NCBI GenBank assembly: GCA_029882395.1
Contig: JAOUKT010000001.1
Span: forward strand, 64,159 to 128,158
Source: Gammaproteobacteria bacterium
Lineage (GTDB): Bacteria > Pseudomonadota > Gammaproteobacteria > SZUA-229
Direction: 5' to 3'
DNA: 64,000 nt
The stretch's first letter is position 1, and each line of letters starts with the position of its first letter. The position numbers and the translations under genes were made by a program. Of the stretch, positions 442 to 39,048 are shown piece by piece. Below the pieces are notes generated by a model, which worked only from the letters and a program-made list of their open reading frames with translations, had not been told where the DNA came from and ran no database searches.

Positions 442-1653
442 ATGAATCCCAACTTAAACCAACTGCACCCCTACCCATTTGAAAAGTTAGCAACCCTAAA
501 AGCCGGTGTGACGCCCCCTGAGTCGCTTAAACATATTGCATTATCGATCGGCGAACCGAAACACGATGCGCCCCGGTTTGTCGTCAATGCCCTGGTTGCT
601 GCGGTGGATACGCTCAATACTTACCCGTTAACTAAAGGCACGGCTGAATTACGTCAAAGCATAAACGACTGGCTGGTTAAGCGCTTTAAGCTTGACGCTA
701 ACTCGCTGCATATTGAAAACAACATTTTACCGGTCGCCGGCACGCGCGAAGCCCTGTTTGCCTTTGCCCAGGCCGTTATTGATCCGACTGCTGTTCAACA
801 ACCACTGGTATTAATGCCCAACCCGTTTTACCAGATTTATGAAGGCGCAGCCTTGTTGGCCGGCGCCAGGCCTTATTATTACGAGACAACAGCAGAAAAT
901 GACTATCAGCCTGATTTCGACGCCATTGCGGATGATGTCTGGCAGCGCTGCCAGTTACTCTATATTTGTTCACCTGGAAACCCGACTGGTGCCGTCATCA
1001 GTAAACAAACGCTGCAATCTCTGATTACAAAATCCAAAACATTCGATTTTATTATTGCATCAGATGAATGCTACTCAGAACTTTATTTTGATGAATCGAC
1101 ACCACCGACCGGTTTATTGCAAGCCTCTGAGGATATGGGAAATCATGGCCATACTAACTGCGTGGTTTTCCATAGCCTTTCAAAACGCTCAAACCTGCCG
1201 GGCTTGCGCTCAGGCTTTGTTGCCGGTGATGCGAATATTATGAGCGCTTTCCTGAAATATCGCACCTATCATGGCTGCGCGTTGCCGCCAACACACCAGA
1301 TAGCCAGCATCGCCGCCTGGGGTGATGAAGAGCACGTCAGACAAAATCGTGCGTTATATACCGAGAAATTTAAAGCTGTTATCGATATACTACAGCCCGT
1401 CATTACAATTCAGAGGCCAGCAGCATCGTTTTATATCTGGCTGAAGACCCCTATCTGTGAACAGGAATTTGCCCGACAGCTGTTTGCAACACAGAACATC
1501 ACCGTATTACCAGGATCATACCTGTCACGTGATAACAATGGGATCAATCCCGGTGCCAAGCATGTGCGCATGGCACTTGTGGCGCCTCTTGATGAATGCA
1601 TTGAGGCCGCGAAGCGAATTAAACAATTTATTGCATCACTTAAGGCTGCCTGA
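442..1653 (+). CDS. dapC: Succinyldiaminopimelate transaminase DapC
   Basis: A 403-residue fold-type-I PLP aminotransferase. It uses glutamate to convert N-succinyl-2-amino-6-oxopimelate to N-succinyl-LL-2,6-diaminopimelate in the lysine/meso-DAP (peptidoglycan) pathway; cytosolic. The opening (PYPFEKLATLKAG, then SIGEPKH) is characteristic of the proteobacterial DapC family. The PLP lysine is K248 in HSLSKRSNLPGLRSGF, with the usual CSPGNPTG near residue 180 and SDECYSELYF near 207-216. dapD follows after about 80 bases, so two successive pathway steps lie together. Length is normal for the family. Confidence 0.93.
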   Translation: MNPNLNQLHPYPFEKLATLKAGVTPPESLKHIALSIGEPKHDAPRFVVNALVAAVDTLNTYPLTKGTAELRQSINDWLVKRFKLDANSLHIENNILPVAGTREALFAFAQAVIDPTAVQQPLVLMPNPFYQIYEGAALLAGARPYYYETTAENDYQPDFDAIADDVWQRCQLLYICSPGNPTGAVISKQTLQSLITKSKTFDFIIASDECYSELYFDESTPPTGLLQASEDMGNHGHTNCVVFHSLSKRSNLPGLRSGFVAGDANIMSAFLKYRTYHGCALPPTHQIASIAAWGDEEHVRQNRALYTEKFKAVIDILQPVITIQRPAASFYIWLKTPICEQEFARQLFATQNITVLPGSYLSRDNNGINPGAKHVRMALVAPLDECIEAAKRIKQFIASLKAA

Positions 1654-1736
1654 TTAACCGAGGTAGCTTTGATTAATTACTTTATGCGCCGTTTTGCCTA
1701 ACCGCAAACACGCCATTAAATAAACCGGAGAAAATG

Positions 1737-2561
1737 ATGGAAGACATCAAAAAGATTATCGATGAAGCGTTCGAACGTCGCGCTGACATTACACCACGCA
1801 ATGCAGAAGCACATGTAATTGATGCCGTTAACACAGTTATCGGCATGTTAGATTCTGGTGAACTGCGTGTCGCTGAAAAGAAAGACGGTGACTGGGTCAC
1901 TAATGAATGGCTGAAAAAAGCCGTATTGTTGTCTTTCCGTATTAATGACAACGATTTTATCAAAGGCGGTTTCACAAACTACTACGATAAATGCCCGTCA
2001 AAATTCGCTGACATGAATTCAAAAGATTTCCGCGCAACCGGCGTTCGTGTGGTACCGCCTGCCACCGCTCGCTTTGGTTCATACATCGGTTCAGGCACAG
2101 TCTTAATGCCGTCGTATGTCAACATCGGTGCTTATGTGGATTCAGGCACCATGGTTGATACCTGGGCAACAGTGGGCTCATGCGCACAAATCGGTAAAAA
2201 CGTTCACCTTTCAGGTGGTGTTGGTATCGGCGGTGTATTAGAACCCTTACAGGCAACCCCGACCATCATTGAAGACAACTGCTTCATCGGTGCCCGTTCA
2301 GAAGTGGTTGAAGGCGTCATCGTTGAAGAAGGCTCTGTTATTTCAATGGGTGTTTACATCGGTCAGAGCACTAAAATCTTTAACCGCATGACCGGCGAAG
2401 TCACTTACGGCCGCATCCCTAAAGGTTCGGTTGTCGTTTCAGGCAACCTGCCATCGAAAGACGGCACATACAGCCTGTACTGCGCTGTCATCGTTAAACA
2501 GGTTGATGCCAAGACATTAGGTAAAGTGGGCATTAACGAGTTACTTCGTGATATCGACTAA
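1737..2561 (+). CDS. dapD: 2,3,4,5-tetrahydropyridine-2,6-dicarboxylate N-succinyltransferase DapD
   Basis: DapD transfers succinyl from succinyl-CoA to tetrahydrodipicolinate, the step that makes the substrate of the DapC reaction. The central part shows the hexapeptide left-handed beta-helix pattern (residues about 105-230: [39 protein letters not shown]). Two ATGs stand in tandem at 1734 and 1737. I chose 1737 because GGAG then lies six bases upstream and the resulting 274-residue protein aligns from its first residue with E. coli DapD ([20 protein letters not shown]). The gene is followed directly by a strong terminator. Confidence 0.95.
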
Positions 2562-5897: not shown

Positions 5898-6688
5898 AAT
5901 GACGTTTCCACATTTTCAGGGTCAATAACATCCCCGCTCAATTCGATTAAATAATCCAGTAAATGAGAATAGGCCCTGCAACCGCGGCTACTGGGCCGTG
6001 CGATTGATAGCGGCACACCGCGCCGACTGGCTTCACGAAACAAGGTATCAATAGGCACCACACCTTCCCAGATTTTACCTTTATAGTCAGCGCGCAATTG
6101 TTTCAGCGTATCGTGAGAGGCTCTTAGTCGCTGATCAAAAAAGGTGGGCACAATTGAATAGCTAATCTCCTGTTTACGCGCCTTGATGATCATATTAAGC
6201 GTATTCACCATACGCTCGAGTCCTTTTGAAGCCAGAAACTCAGTTTGTACCGGTACCAATAGATGATCGCATGATGCCAGTGCATTAACCATTAGCAGGC
6301 CTAGCACCGGCGGGCAATCAATCACAGCGTAATCGTACTGATCAGAAATAGAATCCAAAGCTGTTTTAATCACCAGCCCCATGCCGCCATTAGTGCCTAA
6401 TTGTCGATCCAGAGTGGCCATAGCAGATGACGCCGGCATAAAAGATATATTTTTGAATTTGGTTTTTATAACAACTTGCTCGGGGCGCGCTGTTTTATGA
6501 AACAAATCATATACCGTTGGTTCCAGCTCATCCGGATCACTGCCAAAATAACTGGTCATTGATCCATGCGGATCGAGATCAACTAATAAGACTCGTTTAC
6601 CCCGCATGCTTAGTGTTCCGCCAATAGTGATTGCAGAAGTTGTTTTGCCAACTCCACCTTTTTGATTTGCAACAGCCCAGACTTTCAT
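5894..6688 (-). CDS. parC: ParA-family ATPase ParC, chemotaxis array positioning
   Basis: 264 residues with the deviant Walker A motif KGGVGKTTSA (about residues 10-19), a Walker B-like VLLVDLDPHGSMTSYF and a second YAVIDCPPVLG. Among ParA/Soj proteins, those located between motD and a CheW-domain gene set the polar location and inheritance of chemotaxis arrays in Vibrio (ParC) and are conserved in Pseudomonas. The 20-base gap to motD and the ATGA overlap with parP support co-expression. The name refers to the chemotaxis ParC, not topoisomerase IV. Confidence 0.85.
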   Translation of the reverse strand: MKVWAVANQKGGVGKTTSAITIGGTLSMRGKRVLLVDLDPHGSMTSYFGSDPDELEPTVYDLFHKTARPEQVVIKTKFKNISFMPASSAMATLDRQLGTNGGMGLVIKTALDSISDQYDYAVIDCPPVLGLLMVNALASCDHLLVPVQTEFLASKGLERMVNTLNMIIKARKQEISYSIVPTFFDQRLRASHDTLKQLRADYKGKIWEGVVPIDTLFREASRRGVPLSIARPSSRGCRAYSHLLDYLIELSGDVIDPENVETSL

Positions 6689-6708
6689 TTTAGTATTTAA
6701 TTATCATT

Positions 6709-7509
6709 TTATGTTTCTGAAAAAATATCATTGCTAGTAAAGATTCTAACAATAACTCTTCTGTTTTTATTTCTGCCTTGTGCTGAGTCATTATTCGCTA
6801 CCGGGCGGTGCTCACCAAAACCAATCGCACCTAATGTTTCAGGGTCAATACCCAGACCCGCAAACAAATTGACCACGCTCACCGCTCTTGCCGCTGACAA
6901 CTCCCAGTTTGATGAATATTTATTAGTATGAATAGGGATATTATCACTATACCCTAATACATAAACAGGTTTATCGTAACCCAATAGCTGATAACTTAGC
7001 GGCTCAAGCAGCTCTACCGCTTTAGAGGATAAAGCTGAACTGCCGCTACGAAATAAAACACCTGTACTTATCTCCACATCTATCCAGCGATTGCTTGATC
7101 GTATTTTAATCTCACCTTTTTGAACCCATGTCTTTAAGTTTTTTGTTAAATTGCGTTTTACCACTTCTGGAGAATGACCCAGCTTATTTAATTTTTCTCT
7201 GTTGTTTTTTTCATTAGCACTCAGGTCAGCAACCTTGTCAGGCACCGGCGCAAGCATTTTTGGGGTTTTTCCTATCTGAATAGGCGTTTTACTGGCAACC
7301 GGCTGTGACTGTGGCCCGGCCTCATCATTGATATTCTGAAATGCAGACACGATGGAATCGGCTAAAACTCGGTATTTACCTTCATTGACAGAAGAAATTG
7401 AGTACATCATGACAAAAAACGCAAACAACAAGGTAATAAAATCAGCGTATGAAATTAACCAGCGATCATGATGCTCACTTTCTTCTTCTGTTTTTTTTCG
7501 TCGTGACAT
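6709..7509 (-). CDS. motD: Flagellar motor stator protein MotD (MotB family)
   Basis: 266 residues. A short basic cytoplasmic N-terminus is followed by one membrane helix (about 18-40, ISYADFITLLFAFFVMMYS) with the ion-conducting aspartate at D23. A periplasmic linker leads to an OmpA-like peptidoglycan-binding domain (about 140-255: GVLFRSGSSALSSKA, GYSDNIPIHTN, LSAARAVSVVNLF, GFGEHRPVANN, NRRVIVRI). It forms the stator with MotC, encoded eight bases upstream. The MotC/MotD designation follows the gene order of Pseudomonas. The coupling ion cannot be told from sequence. Confidence 0.92.
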   Translation of the reverse strand: MSRRKKTEEESEHHDRWLISYADFITLLFAFFVMMYSISSVNEGKYRVLADSIVSAFQNINDEAGPQSQPVASKTPIQIGKTPKMLAPVPDKVADLSANEKNNREKLNKLGHSPEVVKRNLTKNLKTWVQKGEIKIRSSNRWIDVEISTGVLFRSGSSALSSKAVELLEPLSYQLLGYDKPVYVLGYSDNIPIHTNKYSSNWELSAARAVSVVNLFAGLGIDPETLGAIGFGEHRPVANNDSAQGRNKNRRVIVRIFTSNDIFSET

Positions 7510-32273: not shown

Positions 32274-32645
32274 TTAGGCTAACGCGCTCGCCAGCGCATC
32301 TTCATCAATCGGATATGCCAATATTGAATGCACCTTGCACACTGCCAGTAATCGTTTTAGTTTGTCGGCATTTTCCCGGTCATAGAAAACCACTACACGT
32401 GTATCGGGGTATTTTTGAACTGATGCCAGTAAGGTTTCAAGACTACTGGTGCGGTCACGAAAATCTGACTGGTAATTGAATTCAGCCACAATCATGTCAG
32501 GCTGTTGTTTTTTTATCGCCGCCACCGCCTTGCGCATGGTTTCAACCATTGTTACCTGGTAACCCGCCTTCTGATAAAGCTGATCATAAAGCGGATACCC
32601 TCCCTGCTCTACAATGGACAATAAACGCCGGGCTAACTCAGACAT
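32274..32645 (-). CDS. Degenerate receiver-like protein
   Basis: About 123 residues with the alternating strand/helix layout of a response-regulator receiver: GYQVTMVETMRKAVAAIKKQ, DMIVAEFNYQSDF, TRVVVFYDRENADKLKRLL, and ILAYPIDEDAL at the end. The phospho-acceptor position is Glu (AEF), the early acidic pair is absent and the usual Lys-Pro is Tyr-Pro. It is probably not phosphorylated. It starts two bases after the stop of the DUF2384 gene, so the two are expressed together. Function is unknown; a protein-interaction role is likely. Confidence 0.7.
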   Translation of the reverse strand: MSELARRLLSIVEQGGYPLYDQLYQKAGYQVTMVETMRKAVAAIKKQQPDMIVAEFNYQSDFRDRTSSLETLLASVQKYPDTRVVVFYDRENADKLKRLLAVCKVHSILAYPIDEDALASALA

Positions 32646-32647
32646 TA

Positions 32648-33037
32648 TTAGGGTGAACTCATCCACGAGCAGTCGAGATGCATACGCACAGACACCAAAC
32701 CCTGTAAGCCATCTTCGATAATAGTGTTCACAGGCGTACGCTGTTTAAAGCGACGGTGGCCGCGACGCATCCACAACGCACCCATTTTTTCACTATGGGG
32801 ATAGGTAGTATGCAGCGCATCATCAATAGCAAGAATGTGTTCCAGCCGTTGATTAACATCATCGGTATCAGGCAGAGGCGTATCATCACGAAATGATCTC
32901 AGAACCCGGGTTCTCGTGCCATCGGGCAACGCCAGCACACCGACCTGCTGCTCTGCATTTAATTCCCATGACTCTAACAAACCCATAACATAACGGGTCA
33001 TTTTCATTCTTGCATCTTCAGTCTGTCGTTCAGTCAT
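32648..33037 (-). CDS. MbcA/ParS/Xre-type (DUF2384) protein without a RES toxin partner
   Basis: 129 residues. The C-terminal 60 residues fit the MbcA/ParS/Xre antitoxin toxin-binding domain (ALWMRRGHRRFKQRTPVNTI, then EDGLQGLVSVRMHLD). The N-terminal half (LLESWELNAEQQVGVLAL, then RVLRSF) matches the helical part of such proteins. Classical partners are RES-domain NAD-degrading toxins, but none is adjacent. The linked gene encodes a degenerate receiver instead. A regulatory rather than antitoxin role is likely. Confidence 0.75.
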   Translation of the reverse strand: MTERQTEDARMKMTRYVMGLLESWELNAEQQVGVLALPDGTRTRVLRSFRDDTPLPDTDDVNQRLEHILAIDDALHTTYPHSEKMGALWMRRGHRRFKQRTPVNTIIEDGLQGLVSVRMHLDCSWMSSP

Positions 33038-34743: not shown

Positions 34744-35445
34744 ATGAGTGACAATGAGAACAATTCACCTATCGCAGCGGCACCTGAACTGGGTGACAAG
34801 GAGATGCTGGAGCAACAGCTCAAGGAACAGCTAGATCATCTGGAGTCATTACAGCAACGCTTCGGTGCTGATCAACTCACACAGGCCCGGGCACAGCTTG
34901 ATATTGCTGAGACCATGGCAGGCCTTGAACGCGGCGAGGAAGCCTGGAGCCTGGCACGTGGTGCTTTCGATTTATTTTTAAAAGACGAACAATGGCAGGA
35001 TGCCGTAGAGGCCTGTGACATTCTTTACCAATGCGAGCAGCCGGCTTCTATCGCCGCGCTGGGCATGGGCGTCTGGCTGGCCGTCACTTACCCCATTAAA
35101 ATGCAAACCAGTTATGTCATGCTTGAACATATTGTCGATGAAACGCCGGACAAAGCAGATGGTGGCGCGGTTGCTGCTATGGTTGCTCATTACATCGCCG
35201 ATGTGCGTGCAGAAGATGATAAAAAACGCGCCAATATGCAATTTTTAACCATCAACCTGCTCGCCCGTGTTGCCAAGCGCCACAGTGATGTAACAGACCA
35301 GGCCGGGCTTGATTTCTGGATTGAAAAACTTGAACTCAACAACCAGGAAAAGTTATTTTCTCGTTTCTCGCTGATCATTAACGCCATTGTTGAAGACCAG
35401 TGGTGGTTCGACCGGGATGAGTTGAGAAACAAAATACCGGAATAA
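34744..35445 (+). CDS. Conserved hypothetical acidic helical protein
   Basis: 233 residues, very acidic and almost wholly helical, with no membrane helix or signal. The stretch ARAQLDIAETMAGLERGEEA, then WSLARGAFDLFLKDEQWQDA, resembles TPR-like helical pairs. It is Trp-containing and ends WWFDRDELRNKIPE. GGAG lies eight bases before the ATG. I do not recognise a named family; a cytosolic protein-interaction role is the most that can be inferred. Confidence 0.72.
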   Translation: MSDNENNSPIAAAPELGDKEMLEQQLKEQLDHLESLQQRFGADQLTQARAQLDIAETMAGLERGEEAWSLARGAFDLFLKDEQWQDAVEACDILYQCEQPASIAALGMGVWLAVTYPIKMQTSYVMLEHIVDETPDKADGGAVAAMVAHYIADVRAEDDKKRANMQFLTINLLARVAKRHSDVTDQAGLDFWIEKLELNNQEKLFSRFSLIINAIVEDQWWFDRDELRNKIPE

Positions 35446-35630: not shown

Positions 35631-36290
35631 ATGTCGGAAATTATAAAACGCATCGTCGTTATGAATTCAAAAGGTGGTTGTGGAAAAACCACCATCGCCA
35701 CCAATCTTGCCAGCTGTTATGCCCGCCATGGATATGACACAGCGTTGCTGGACTGTGACCCTCAGGAGTCCAGCATGCACTGGCTGCGCAGCCGGGACAA
35801 AAACTTACCCGGCATTTATGGCGTCATCGCTCATAAATCAGCCACCCTTAATAAAAATAAATGCTGGCATTTACGCCTGCCGATCGGTACTCAGCGCGTT
35901 ATTATTGACACGCCGGCAGGCTTACGTGAGACCGATTTGCTGGAAAACCTTCAGAATATTGATGAGGTTGTGATCCCCGTATTACCTTCACCGATTGACA
36001 TCCATTCTACCGCCGACTTTATCCGCGATTTATTGATCCTCGGAAAATTACGTCGTAAGGAAATACGAATCAACATTATTACCAATAAGGTTAAAGCAAA
36101 CACCATTGCTTTTCAGTCGCTGTGCCGATTCTTAAACACATTAAAGATACCGGTAATAGCACAAATAAAAGACACACAAAATTATGTGCATGCCACCGAG
36201 AAGGGACTGGGCATACATGAAGTTAATAAAAAAACGTTACTGGAAGATAAAATATTATGGGACGGAATACTCAAGCATCTGGAATCATAA
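35631..36290 (+). CDS. Orphan ParA/MinD-family ATPase
   Basis: 219 residues. Deviant Walker A SKGGCGKTTIATNLAS (about 13-28), Walker B-like TALLDCDPQESSMHWL, and RVIIDTPAGL. It lacks a DNA-binding N-terminal extension and any adjacent parB, so it is not a standard plasmid or chromosome ParA. Small orphan ParA proteins usually position a protein cargo or complex. It converges on the HU-LysM gene with only 12 bases between stops. The window also encodes ParC and FleN, so it is the third member of this superfamily here. Confidence 0.85.
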   Translation: MSEIIKRIVVMNSKGGCGKTTIATNLASCYARHGYDTALLDCDPQESSMHWLRSRDKNLPGIYGVIAHKSATLNKNKCWHLRLPIGTQRVIIDTPAGLRETDLLENLQNIDEVVIPVLPSPIDIHSTADFIRDLLILGKLRRKEIRINIITNKVKANTIAFQSLCRFLNTLKIPVIAQIKDTQNYVHATEKGLGIHEVNKKTLLEDKILWDGILKHLES

Positions 36291-36302: not shown

Positions 36303-38129
36303 TTAATCTGACAATAATGACAGATTTTCAATATCTGAACGTGCTATTTCTTCTTTATATTTAATTAACAAATCAGCATCGAACCTTTCCACACCTATCA
36401 AAGAAAAGTACGCGTATGGATTGCCTCTTTTTTTATGGTAGAGATAATTGTAATAGTAGCCTGTAGCAATATTATTCTTATCCTGCTTTGTCAGCGCATC
36501 AGGCTCGCCATATAAAGTCGGCAACAAAACCAGCTTACCCATTTTTACACGATCAGGGTTATTGATCTTATTCTGGTTAGCCTGATAAATATGTGGCCAG
36601 TAAAAAGGATTGACATAATATTTTTTTGCCAGACGCCAGAGACTATCGCCGTTGATCAGTCGATAATCCCTGGCTGTAAAAAACGCCGTTTGCACGGCAT
36701 TGTTTTGAGTCTGGCCGTCAGCTACTTCTTGCGTAAGCACAGCTGCCTCATCAATGAGCGCATCCGTATTCACGGCAAGCTGCGATGCGGCAAACTCAGT
36801 CTCAATGTCTGCCGGACGGTCAATAACGCCAGCTGTAAGCTCAGCAGCAGCGTCTTCTTCAACGGTATTGAGAGTGGACAGCTCCTCTTCAATCAATGCT
36901 TGCTCACGGCCAGCCGCAACAGGTTCTTCCGCTACTGAAAAAGCCGGCGTAACTGGCTCAGCCGTGAATGTTTGCATCTCTGCAACAGCCTGAGAATCAA
37001 TTGGCTGATTATCGGCTGTAAAGGTATTAAATAAAGTCGCCACTGCAAGTAAAACAATGACAGCCGCAGCAACCGCTAACAACGGCTTTCTGTTAGCCTG
37101 CAGTCCGCCTTTGTCAGTCTCGCCGTTTAACTTTGAAACGGAATTCAACTCCTTATCAAGATCCTGATCTGATTTTGAATCCGTGGTTTCATACAATGCG
37201 CTTCGTGTTTCCGTGCGCACAATAATTTCAGGAGCGGCAAACTTAGGCGCTGATTTTTCTTTTTGCTCAGTATTTTTAAAATAATGCCGTTCAGAGAGTT
37301 TTTTAATGTGATCTACAACAGACTGATCATTCCACTCAAAATCTTTTTTTGCTACGGGTGGTACAACCGCCTCTTTGTCTTTTTTATCATCAAAAGCGGA
37401 AACATCGGGGGTTTCATTTATTTCTTCATGCGCTGTTTGTTGATGATAGCCAGAGTAAGCAACCGTGACTTTTTCCGCTGGCTCGACTGCTGATTCTTTC
37501 TTAAGGATTTCTGCAACCTGTTCTAAAACCTCTATTTCATCTCTAATATCAGCCACCACAGACTCTGGCTGCGCTATTATTGGATCGGCTCCAGTTTTAT
37601 TTTCAGCCTTGAGATCAACGGACTCTTCCGTCGAGAATTTTTCTTTTTTCTGCTCTGCCAGTTTTGCCACAAGACCGGCCGCTTCTGACAGCACTGGTCG
37701 TTTTGCAGCAAGCGGTTTGGTTTGTAAGACAGCAGGCTCAGGTGCCGGCTCTGGTGTTTTATCTGCTGTTGTTTTGGCCGCAACGGCCTTTGGCTGCAGC
37801 AGCGATGCATGTTCAGCCTCATTCCAGGGCACACGGGCTAAAGGGTTGGGCTCAACCGCCTCTTTCAGTCGCTTTGCCGGTGTAAAAATGACACGCGGGC
37901 GCCCCTGAATCAATATCTTATTACCGGTTGACGGGTTAACACCGTTACGTGAATTCATCCATTTGAGCTTAAAAGTGCCAAACTGATGCAAACGAACCTG
38001 ACCATCCCTGATCAAGCCTTCACGTATAATATCCAATAAAGCCCTGGAAAATTCAGACAAAAACGCCTGTTCATTGCCGTAAACACGGGCAATCTGATCC
38101 ATCAAGGCTTTGTCATAGAGTCGTTTCAT
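36303..38129 (-). CDS. HU-type DNA-binding domain fused through a membrane helix to a LysM domain
   Basis: 608 residues. Residues 1-92 are an HU/IHF domain: LHQFGTFKLKW corresponds to the family's GFGxF region, the arm tip reads RNGVNPSTGNKILIQGRP with the intercalating Pro at 66, and the domain ends RVIFTPAKRLKEAV. Residues 95-345 are a charged, Ala/Glu/Lys/Pro-rich linker. One membrane helix is at about 350-370 (LLAVAAAVIVLLAVATLF). A second acidic linker precedes a LysM domain (488-541: LINGDSLWRLAKKYY, IYQANQNKINNPDRVKMGKL), and a Tyr-rich tail ends the protein. Topology would be DNA-binding side in, LysM in the periplasm. The start overlaps the upstream HU-like gene by four bases. Confidence 0.85.
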   Translation of the reverse strand: MKRLYDKALMDQIARVYGNEQAFLSEFSRALLDIIREGLIRDGQVRLHQFGTFKLKWMNSRNGVNPSTGNKILIQGRPRVIFTPAKRLKEAVEPNPLARVPWNEAEHASLLQPKAVAAKTTADKTPEPAPEPAVLQTKPLAAKRPVLSEAAGLVAKLAEQKKEKFSTEESVDLKAENKTGADPIIAQPESVVADIRDEIEVLEQVAEILKKESAVEPAEKVTVAYSGYHQQTAHEEINETPDVSAFDDKKDKEAVVPPVAKKDFEWNDQSVVDHIKKLSERHYFKNTEQKEKSAPKFAAPEIIVRTETRSALYETTDSKSDQDLDKELNSVSKLNGETDKGGLQANRKPLLAVAAAVIVLLAVATLFNTFTADNQPIDSQAVAEMQTFTAEPVTPAFSVAEEPVAAGREQALIEEELSTLNTVEEDAAAELTAGVIDRPADIETEFAASQLAVNTDALIDEAAVLTQEVADGQTQNNAVQTAFFTARDYRLINGDSLWRLAKKYYVNPFYWPHIYQANQNKINNPDRVKMGKLVLLPTLYGEPDALTKQDKNNIATGYYYNYLYHKKRGNPYAYFSLIGVERFDADLLIKYKEEIARSDIENLSLLSD

Positions 38130-38413
38130 TCAGGCTTCCAGCTTTTGACAAAATCTTTAAGCCATTGTGATGCGCGAAAAAAAGGCACGGTACGGGCAGG
38201 TGTTAGATAGTATTTCTTTTCCGAAGGCAGATAGGTCCTGCGGGCCGCTGTTTGTTTGACCCCGAATGTTCCAAAACGCCTCAGAACCACCTGTGACTCT
38301 GAGTTCATATGTTGCGTTATGATATCCAGCTCCTGTATTAGGCACCGCCGGGCTTCTGCCTGACTTATTTGCAGCCTAATGGAAAGCAATTTAATCACTT
38401 CAGTTGTTGTCAT
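38126..38413 (-). CDS. Small divergent HU/IHF-like protein
   Basis: 95 residues with the HU core: helical N-terminus (VIKLLSIRLQISQAEARRCL), VVLRRFGTFGVKQTAARRTY and VPFFRASQWLKDFVKSW. The arm is shorter and lacks the N-P-x-T-G tip; it carries ARRTYLPSEKKYY instead. DNA binding or dimerisation may therefore differ from classic HU. Its stop overlaps the ATG of the HU-TM-LysM gene (ATGA), and its own ATG overlaps the stop of a 20-codon small ORF. Heterodimerisation with the HU domain of the larger protein is a reasonable inference. Confidence 0.82.
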   Translation of the reverse strand: MTTTEVIKLLSIRLQISQAEARRCLIQELDIITQHMNSESQVVLRRFGTFGVKQTAARRTYLPSEKKYYLTPARTVPFFRASQWLKDFVKSWKPE

Positions 38414-38577: not shown

Positions 38578-39048
38578 TTATTCGGTAATAAGGTTCTGGT
38601 TAAGATTAGGACCTAATTGATCGGTCAATTGCTGTTTTTGCTGATTTAAATTCTCAATCTGTTCTTTCAGTGATGTAACGTCATTATTCACTTGTACATA
38701 ATCTTTCATAATTTTATTTTTATTTTGTAAAACACTGACTTCGGATGTCAAATTACGCACTTTTTTCTTCAGCCGGTTTGTCTGTCTAAGACAAACTTTG
38801 TATTCGTCATTGATTTTTCCTGAATCCTTCTCGTTCGATTTTACAACCGTTGAAATACTGTTGACTTGTACATCTAATGTTGAGTTTTTTTCCACCAAAC
38901 TGGCAATTTTATTATCCAGACGCATAATCTCTTCATTCTTTAAGGTGATAATTTCCAGCCTTGGATCAATCTGTGAATAAATGTAAACAGAAACGATGGA
39001 CATGCCAATTGAAATTAAAAGGGTCACGAGTGTTCTGACTGATATCAT
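38578..39048 (-). CDS. Single-pass membrane coiled-coil protein
   Basis: 156 residues. One N-terminal membrane helix (about 5-25, RTLVTLLISIGMSIVSVYIY) is followed by a long coiled coil (about 38-145) rich in Lys, Asn, Gln and Glu, with heptad-like Leu/Ile/Val spacing and a single Cys. It ends NLNQNLITE. No named family is recognised. It lies about 105 bases upstream of the small ORF/HU-like/HU-LysM genes on the same strand, so it might belong to the same envelope system, but the gap prevents a firm operon call. Confidence 0.68.
   Translation of the reverse strand: MISVRTLVTLLISIGMSIVSVYIYSQIDPRLEIITLKNEEIMRLDNKIASLVEKNSTLDVQVNSISTVVKSNEKDSGKINDEYKVCLRQTNRLKKKVRNLTSEVSVLQNKNKIMKDYVQVNNDVTSLKEQIENLNQQKQQLTDQLGPNLNQNLITE

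Follow-up and report, generated by a model that had tools for sequence, protein, structure and literature searches.

The window analysed in this study is a stretch of 64,000 nucleotides taken from a 163-kb contig within the 3.29-Mb draft genome of a Gammaproteobacteria bacterium. It was found that two genes encoding HU-family proteins lie directly next to each other in this window. The stop of a small, soluble HU gene and the start of the following gene share 4 bp, ATGA (..GAATGAAA..). The second gene encodes a protein of 608 aa with an HU/IHF domain near its N-terminus and a LysM domain near its C-terminus. The features of the locus are as follows.

36303..38129, minus strand: membrane-anchored HU-LysM gene, 608 aa, ATG start (ORF, Pfam, AF2)
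37851..38129, minus strand: HU/IHF domain, residues 1-93 (PF00216, AF2, PDB match, charge)
37923..37937, minus strand: N65-P-S-T-G69 at the arm tip, which in HU/IHF inserts into DNA (sequence, homologue alignment)
37086..37850, minus strand: cytoplasmic linker, residues 94-348, 255 aa, with predicted disorder interrupted by short conserved helices such as 189-214
37020..37085, minus strand: single membrane helix, residues 349-370, with a positively charged N side (hydrophobicity, AF2)
36687..37019, minus strand: residues 371-481, an acidic periplasmic linker that evolves fast
36504..36686, minus strand: LysM domain, residues 482-542 (weak Pfam match, AF2, family profile, PDB match)
36306..36503, minus strand: C-terminal extension, residues 543-608, helical and conserved, with no family assigned (AF2, pLDDT mostly 86-95)
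38126..38413, minus strand: soluble partner HU gene, 95 aa, directly upstream of the HU-LysM gene (PF00216, AF2)
35631..36290, plus strand: gene for a ParA-family ATPase, converging on the HU-LysM gene, whose end is 12 bp away
38578..39048, minus strand: genus-specific neighbour upstream of the pair, encoding a coiled-coil protein with a hydrophobic N-terminal segment

In a profile scan, residues 7-92 of the 608-aa protein matched PF00216 with an E-value of 1.8e-18 (67.0 bits versus a cut-off of 22.4). An AF2 model of the whole protein was made with ten homologues as input. It has two confident blocks, residues 2-92 and 482-607, and is of low confidence elsewhere; since the mean pLDDT is only 51.9, the placement of the blocks relative to each other has no meaning. 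In the first block, helices and strands follow the canonical HU order, and VIA-align matched the head with the Anabaena HU-DNA complex (1p71; Z 9.9, 93 residues). The domain is basic, with a net charge of +8 and a pI of 10.5 computed over residues 1-95. The [NH]P of the arm tip was found in 13 of 13 gammaproteobacterial membrane HUs, and all of these heads have a net charge between +3 and +11 and a pI of at least 10. Thus, a preliminary description, which had read residues 1-92 as a full HU/IHF fold with an NPxTG tip and had proposed a structure prediction of this part, was correct about the HU head.

The best hydrophobic 19-mer of the protein is residues 349-367, with a mean Kyte-Doolittle value of 2.72 (0.86 for the second-best segment), and 0 of 300 shuffles matched it. 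AF2 puts a helix at residues 350-370, in agreement with the single hydrophobic helix described there before. In all ten aligned homologues, the best hydrophobic segment lies between HU and LysM, and the helix is marginal in a Chromatiales MAG (L043), where 74 of 300 shuffles were equally hydrophobic. The N side of the helix is mostly positive or neutral and the C side neutral or negative among the aligned homologues. Since the HU fold begins at residue 2, there is no room for an N-terminal signal peptide. Structure prediction, charge bias, and conservation all support a predicted N-in/C-out topology, so that the cytosolic HU end and the periplasmic LysM end proposed earlier remain the probable arrangement. 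The cytoplasmic linker is acidic (48 D/E versus 37 K/R in 253 residues). It is about 180-260 aa long in the window's genus versus about 60-98 aa in other aligned genera and families.

The LysM domain gave a Pfam score below the cut-off (PF01476 on residues 490-536, 17.7 versus 20.9 bits), while the same profile matched six of ten homologues at E-values of 0.01 or less, the best being 1.7e-6. The signature GDxLW...N...NP...G and the fold are present in residues 482-542, which AF2 modelled with a pLDDT of 78-93. The model resembles the LysM of Kbp (Z 6.1 with 7pvc; 1.3 Å over 55 residues with 7vcm, VIA-align), and a family profile matched LysM chains of Kbp and of the TsaP type at about 2e-6. 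These matches confirm the LysM domain placed at residues 488-541 in the first account, and they assign it to a predicted Kbp/TsaP subtype. Given the Pfam score below the cut-off, and since Kbp, the closest solved relative, is a potassium-binding protein, binding of sugar by this LysM is less than certain. Structure prediction of the C-terminal part, also proposed at the outset, returned the LysM fold followed by helices (residues 482-607). The VIA-align list for the full model consists mostly of HU and LysM and says nothing on the fold of the C-terminal extension. A separate locus, L053 (G335; 1483-2070, minus strand), encodes a protein of 195 aa that lacks an HU head; it has a hydrophobic segment near the N-terminus and a LysM domain matching the family profile. 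Thus, the C-terminal part exists on its own.

Comparison with the closest relative revealed that the parts evolve at very different rates. Identity is 91% in the HU head, 92% in the LysM domain, 89% in the extension, and 91% in the partner HU, versus 53% in the cytoplasmic linker and 30% in the periplasmic linker. Likewise, dN is 0.046-0.059 for the four slow parts and 0.42 and 0.71 for the linkers. Wherever dS could be estimated, dN/dS of the slow parts is about 0.03. Slow ends and fast linkers are as expected of two working ends joined via spacers. Selection acts on both ends of the HU-LysM protein.

The partner is also an HU by its match to PF00216 (E-value 7.2e-17, 61.9 bits versus a cut-off of 22.4) and by its AF2 model (pLDDT 90.8), which has the HU fold with a TM-score of 0.90 to 1p51. 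A small HU gene lies upstream in 14 of 14 gammaproteobacterial loci with readable upstream sequence, mostly with a 4-bp overlap; one more locus (L044) is cut off by a contig end and stands outside this count. However, the partner has lost the proline tip that the membrane subunit keeps. In the window, its arm tip has changed to Y-L-P-S-E, NPxTG was found in none of the 14 gammaproteobacterial partners, and the arm is largely deleted in L039-L042 and probably in L090. The preliminary description was right about the architecture and had missed this second, translationally coupled HU gene, the conserved C-terminal extension, and the ParA neighbour.

Is this arrangement restricted to one organism? 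The preliminary description had known of no characterised gammaproteobacterial counterpart. I found no paper describing an HU-LysM protein in a partial search of the literature; on the other hand, the architecture itself occurs in several gammaproteobacterial families and in Bacteroidales. The order HU, linker, one membrane helix, linker, and LysM was found in 13 gammaproteobacterial and 4 Bacteroidales proteins (the helix was scored by script in 10 of the 13 and by eye in 3), and this architecture is near certain. The named relatives come from gammaproteobacterial MAGs, of which two carry the label Chromatiales. In its own family, the module is present in the window's species, two more species of the genus, and four further genera. 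Outside this family, it was found in the families of the genomes G050, G137, and G190 and in the Chromatiales-labelled MAGs L043 and L045. Homologues in four further genera and several other families rule out a trait unique to the organism or an accident of assembly.

The distribution is sparse. Among 398 Pseudomonadota genomes searched at E-values of 1e-20 or less, the window's own genome was the sole match. Of 369 genomes sampled evenly across the class, five matched the C-terminal profile, four of which have the HU head. Such a patchy distribution (5/369) indicates that the module does not serve a core function in the class. The copy at L046 (G026) groups with the Chromatiales copies, not with those of its own family (support 91/99), and is present in one species of the genus g10, while the other g10 genomes searched have no module. 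It lies at 5949-7390 between leucine-biosynthesis-like genes and unrelated genes. Both the tree and the differing gene context suggest that this copy was probably transferred horizontally. An origin of the module from phages or plasmids was rejected: phages gave no match to the full architecture, and the plasmid collection matched only Bacteroidales records with chromosomal gene content.

A weak tblastn match to a Prevotella record revealed a similar pair in Bacteroidales. There, a gene for a 97-aa HU overlaps by 8 bp with a gene for a 458-aa protein composed of HU, linker, membrane helix, and LysM, downstream of RimO-like and FtsY-like genes. Records of Parabacteroides distasonis, Bacteroides finegoldii, and Phocaeicola massiliensis have an identical gene order. 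In the two annotated records, the neighbours bear the names ftsY and rimO, and each HU gene of the pair is listed simply as 'HU family DNA-binding protein'. The small HU is upstream in four of four loci, and the genes of the pair overlap by 4-8 bp in most of the 14 gammaproteobacterial and 4 Bacteroidales loci. As in the window, a linker stands on either side of the helix. In contrast, the LysM lies near the C-terminus, with no counterpart of the extension at residues 543-608. Thus, the architecture is wider than Gammaproteobacteria.

The proline tips are reversed in Bacteroidales: NP was found on the small partner in 4 of 4 pairs and on the membrane HU in 0 of 4, whereas the membrane subunit carries the proline in gammaproteobacteria. 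That each pair has one proline tip, carried by the membrane subunit in one phylum and by the small partner in the other, is explained most simply by heterodimers in which one arm suffices. These sequence features suggest that the two HUs may form an obligate heterodimer. The best tree unites the two phyla both for the membrane HUs (72/70) and for the partners (76/80), while AU tests did not reject separate origins of the gammaproteobacterial and Bacteroidales pairs (p 0.39 and 0.41). The membrane HU of Bacteroidales lacks the proline and is near neutral in charge; if it is homologous, the membrane subunit need not contact DNA strongly. A tentative and rather doubtful proposal is that the pairs represent an ancient two-gene system common to Gammaproteobacteria and Bacteroidota, whose HU heterodimer, through its one membrane-spanning subunit, would tie the nucleoid directly and mechanically to peptidoglycan, with no dedicated centromere.

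What might the pair do? A tether is plausible, given the support for the architecture and for the N-in/C-out topology. The two genes would yield a heterodimeric HU with one subunit anchored in the inner membrane. The dimer would bind and bend chromosomal DNA on the cytoplasmic side, the membrane subunit, on its flexible linker, would cross the inner membrane once, and the periplasmic LysM would hold peptidoglycan. Patches of the nucleoid would thereby be fixed to the cell wall, and the chromosome might be positioned or organised in this way during growth or division. Here I infer HU-HU pairing, DNA binding in the cell, peptidoglycan binding by the LysM, and tethering as the outcome. In my estimate, a heterodimeric, membrane-tethered HU linking nucleoid DNA to peptidoglycan has an even chance of being the true function. 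Attachment of the bacterial nucleoid to the envelope is an old question; if the proposal is true, this one protein would bridge DNA and wall directly. The pair also follows ftsY-rimO in Bacteroides, Parabacteroides, and Prevotella, which can be cultivated, so that the idea is testable with working genetics, beyond uncultured MAGs.

Membrane-anchored HUs with a wall-binding domain have already been predicted in Bacteroidota. The HU-CCDC81_bac/HU-SPOR proteins (PF18174, PF18175) have cytoplasmic HUs, a membrane helix, and an outer peptidoglycan-binding domain, and are predicted to link the chromosome and the wall. However, these proteins carry tandem HUs in one chain together with SPOR, while the present module has one HU per protein, two genes, and LysM. 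The partner scored 23.9 bits against PF18175, below its cut-off of 35, and the 608-aa protein gave no match. No SPOR match was found in the 608-aa protein or its homologues by the profile scan. What is new here is that LysM replaces SPOR and two genes replace the tandem HUs. The heterodimers of IHF and HU have two diverged subunits, as predicted here for the pair; however, both of their subunits are soluble and proline-tipped, whereas here one is membrane-bound and one tip has been lost. In the features tested, the HU-LysM module differs from HU-CCDC81_bac/HU-SPOR, HubP/FimV, and ToxR/CadC.

ToxR/CadC and RodZ share with the 608-aa protein a cytoplasmic head of a DNA-binding type, one membrane helix, and a periplasmic domain, while their heads are winged-helix or HTH rather than HU and they have no LysM. 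Two alternatives follow their examples. As in ToxR/CadC, the protein could be a membrane-bound sensor-regulator whose periplasmic LysM or extension senses the wall and whose HU/IHF-like head alters expression. The topology would be identical, IHF-like HUs regulate genes, and the extension, whose conservation roughly equals that of the LysM, could do the sensing. I nevertheless consider a regulator unlikely: no conserved neighbour offers itself as a target, as the pair is constant while its neighbours vary between families; HU binding is mostly without sequence preference; and the winged-helix domain of ToxR/CadC was absent in the profile scan. Alternatively, the HU head could be a protein-binding module, like the helix-turn-helix of RodZ for MreB, making the protein an envelope scaffold without DNA binding. 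The partner has lost its arm tip and, at four or five loci, the greater part of the arm, which would fit a scaffold, as would the Bacteroidales head without proline and positive charge. The gammaproteobacterial head, however, keeps [NH]P in 13 of 13 proteins and a pI of at least 10, where drift would be expected in the absence of DNA binding. A scaffold therefore also seems unlikely, by a shade more.

HubP and FimV offer a further comparison. They share a periplasmic LysM, one membrane helix, and an acidic cytoplasmic part with the 608-aa protein, but they have an N-terminal signal peptide and LysM, a C-terminal TPR/FimV domain, and no HU, so that the orientation is reversed. No FimV match was found in the 608-aa protein, whose LysM is C-terminal and whose HU is N-terminal. 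Vibrio HubP binds ParA1 and, through ParA1, holds the origin of chromosome 1 at the pole; its partners bind the acidic cytosolic part (PMC8789113). In FimV, a polar landmark, the LysM binds sacculi, and polar placement of the protein requires it (PMC12918733). Thus, HubP is a precedent for LysM-anchored chromosome positioning. The ParA gene of the window adjoins the module in the other two module-carrying species of the genus as well. Among the readable stretches of the loci, no ParA was found beside the module in other genera and families, which have no long cytoplasmic linker either. By analogy, the long linker of the genus may perhaps recruit the neighbouring ParA ATPase, and only by inference do I count ParA as part of the system. 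Could the protein act as a HubP-like landmark that depends chiefly on its acidic linker and the neighbouring ParA, with only a secondary role for the contact between HU and DNA? The LysM, the acidic cytoplasmic linker, and the adjoining ParA of the genus would favour it. This is improbable, since other families keep HU, helix, and LysM without a long linker or adjacent ParA, and the domain order is opposite to that of HubP with no FimV/TPR domain found.

A role in defence or in a mobile element, with the membrane-bound HU recognising incoming DNA, would suit the patchy distribution, the likely transfer between families (G026/L046, 91/99), and the expansions of HU in Bacteroidota that Burroughs et al. 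in 2017 reportedly linked to conflict, but it is very improbable given that PADLOC gave no match for the two HU proteins, that the full architecture is absent from the phage collection, and that the Bacteroidales pair keeps a fixed housekeeping position after ftsY-rimO.

Other genes near the module may be mentioned. The coiled-coil protein encoded at 38578..39048 could belong to the complex, though this is uncertain. In the window's genus, a gene for a receiver-like protein (32274-32666) and a gene for an unassigned 233-aa protein (34744-35445) lie near the module, and other genera of the family also have genes similar to both beside it. In L043 (426-3227), the genes preceding the pair encode, as judged by eye, a kinase-like protein, a PP2C-like phosphatase, and two FHA-like proteins, which hints at phosphorylation control or at chance proximity. 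The window's genome encodes another HU at L006 (G000:C9; 1408-1803, plus strand), a 131-aa protein with a lysine/alanine-rich, histone H1-like N-terminal tail.
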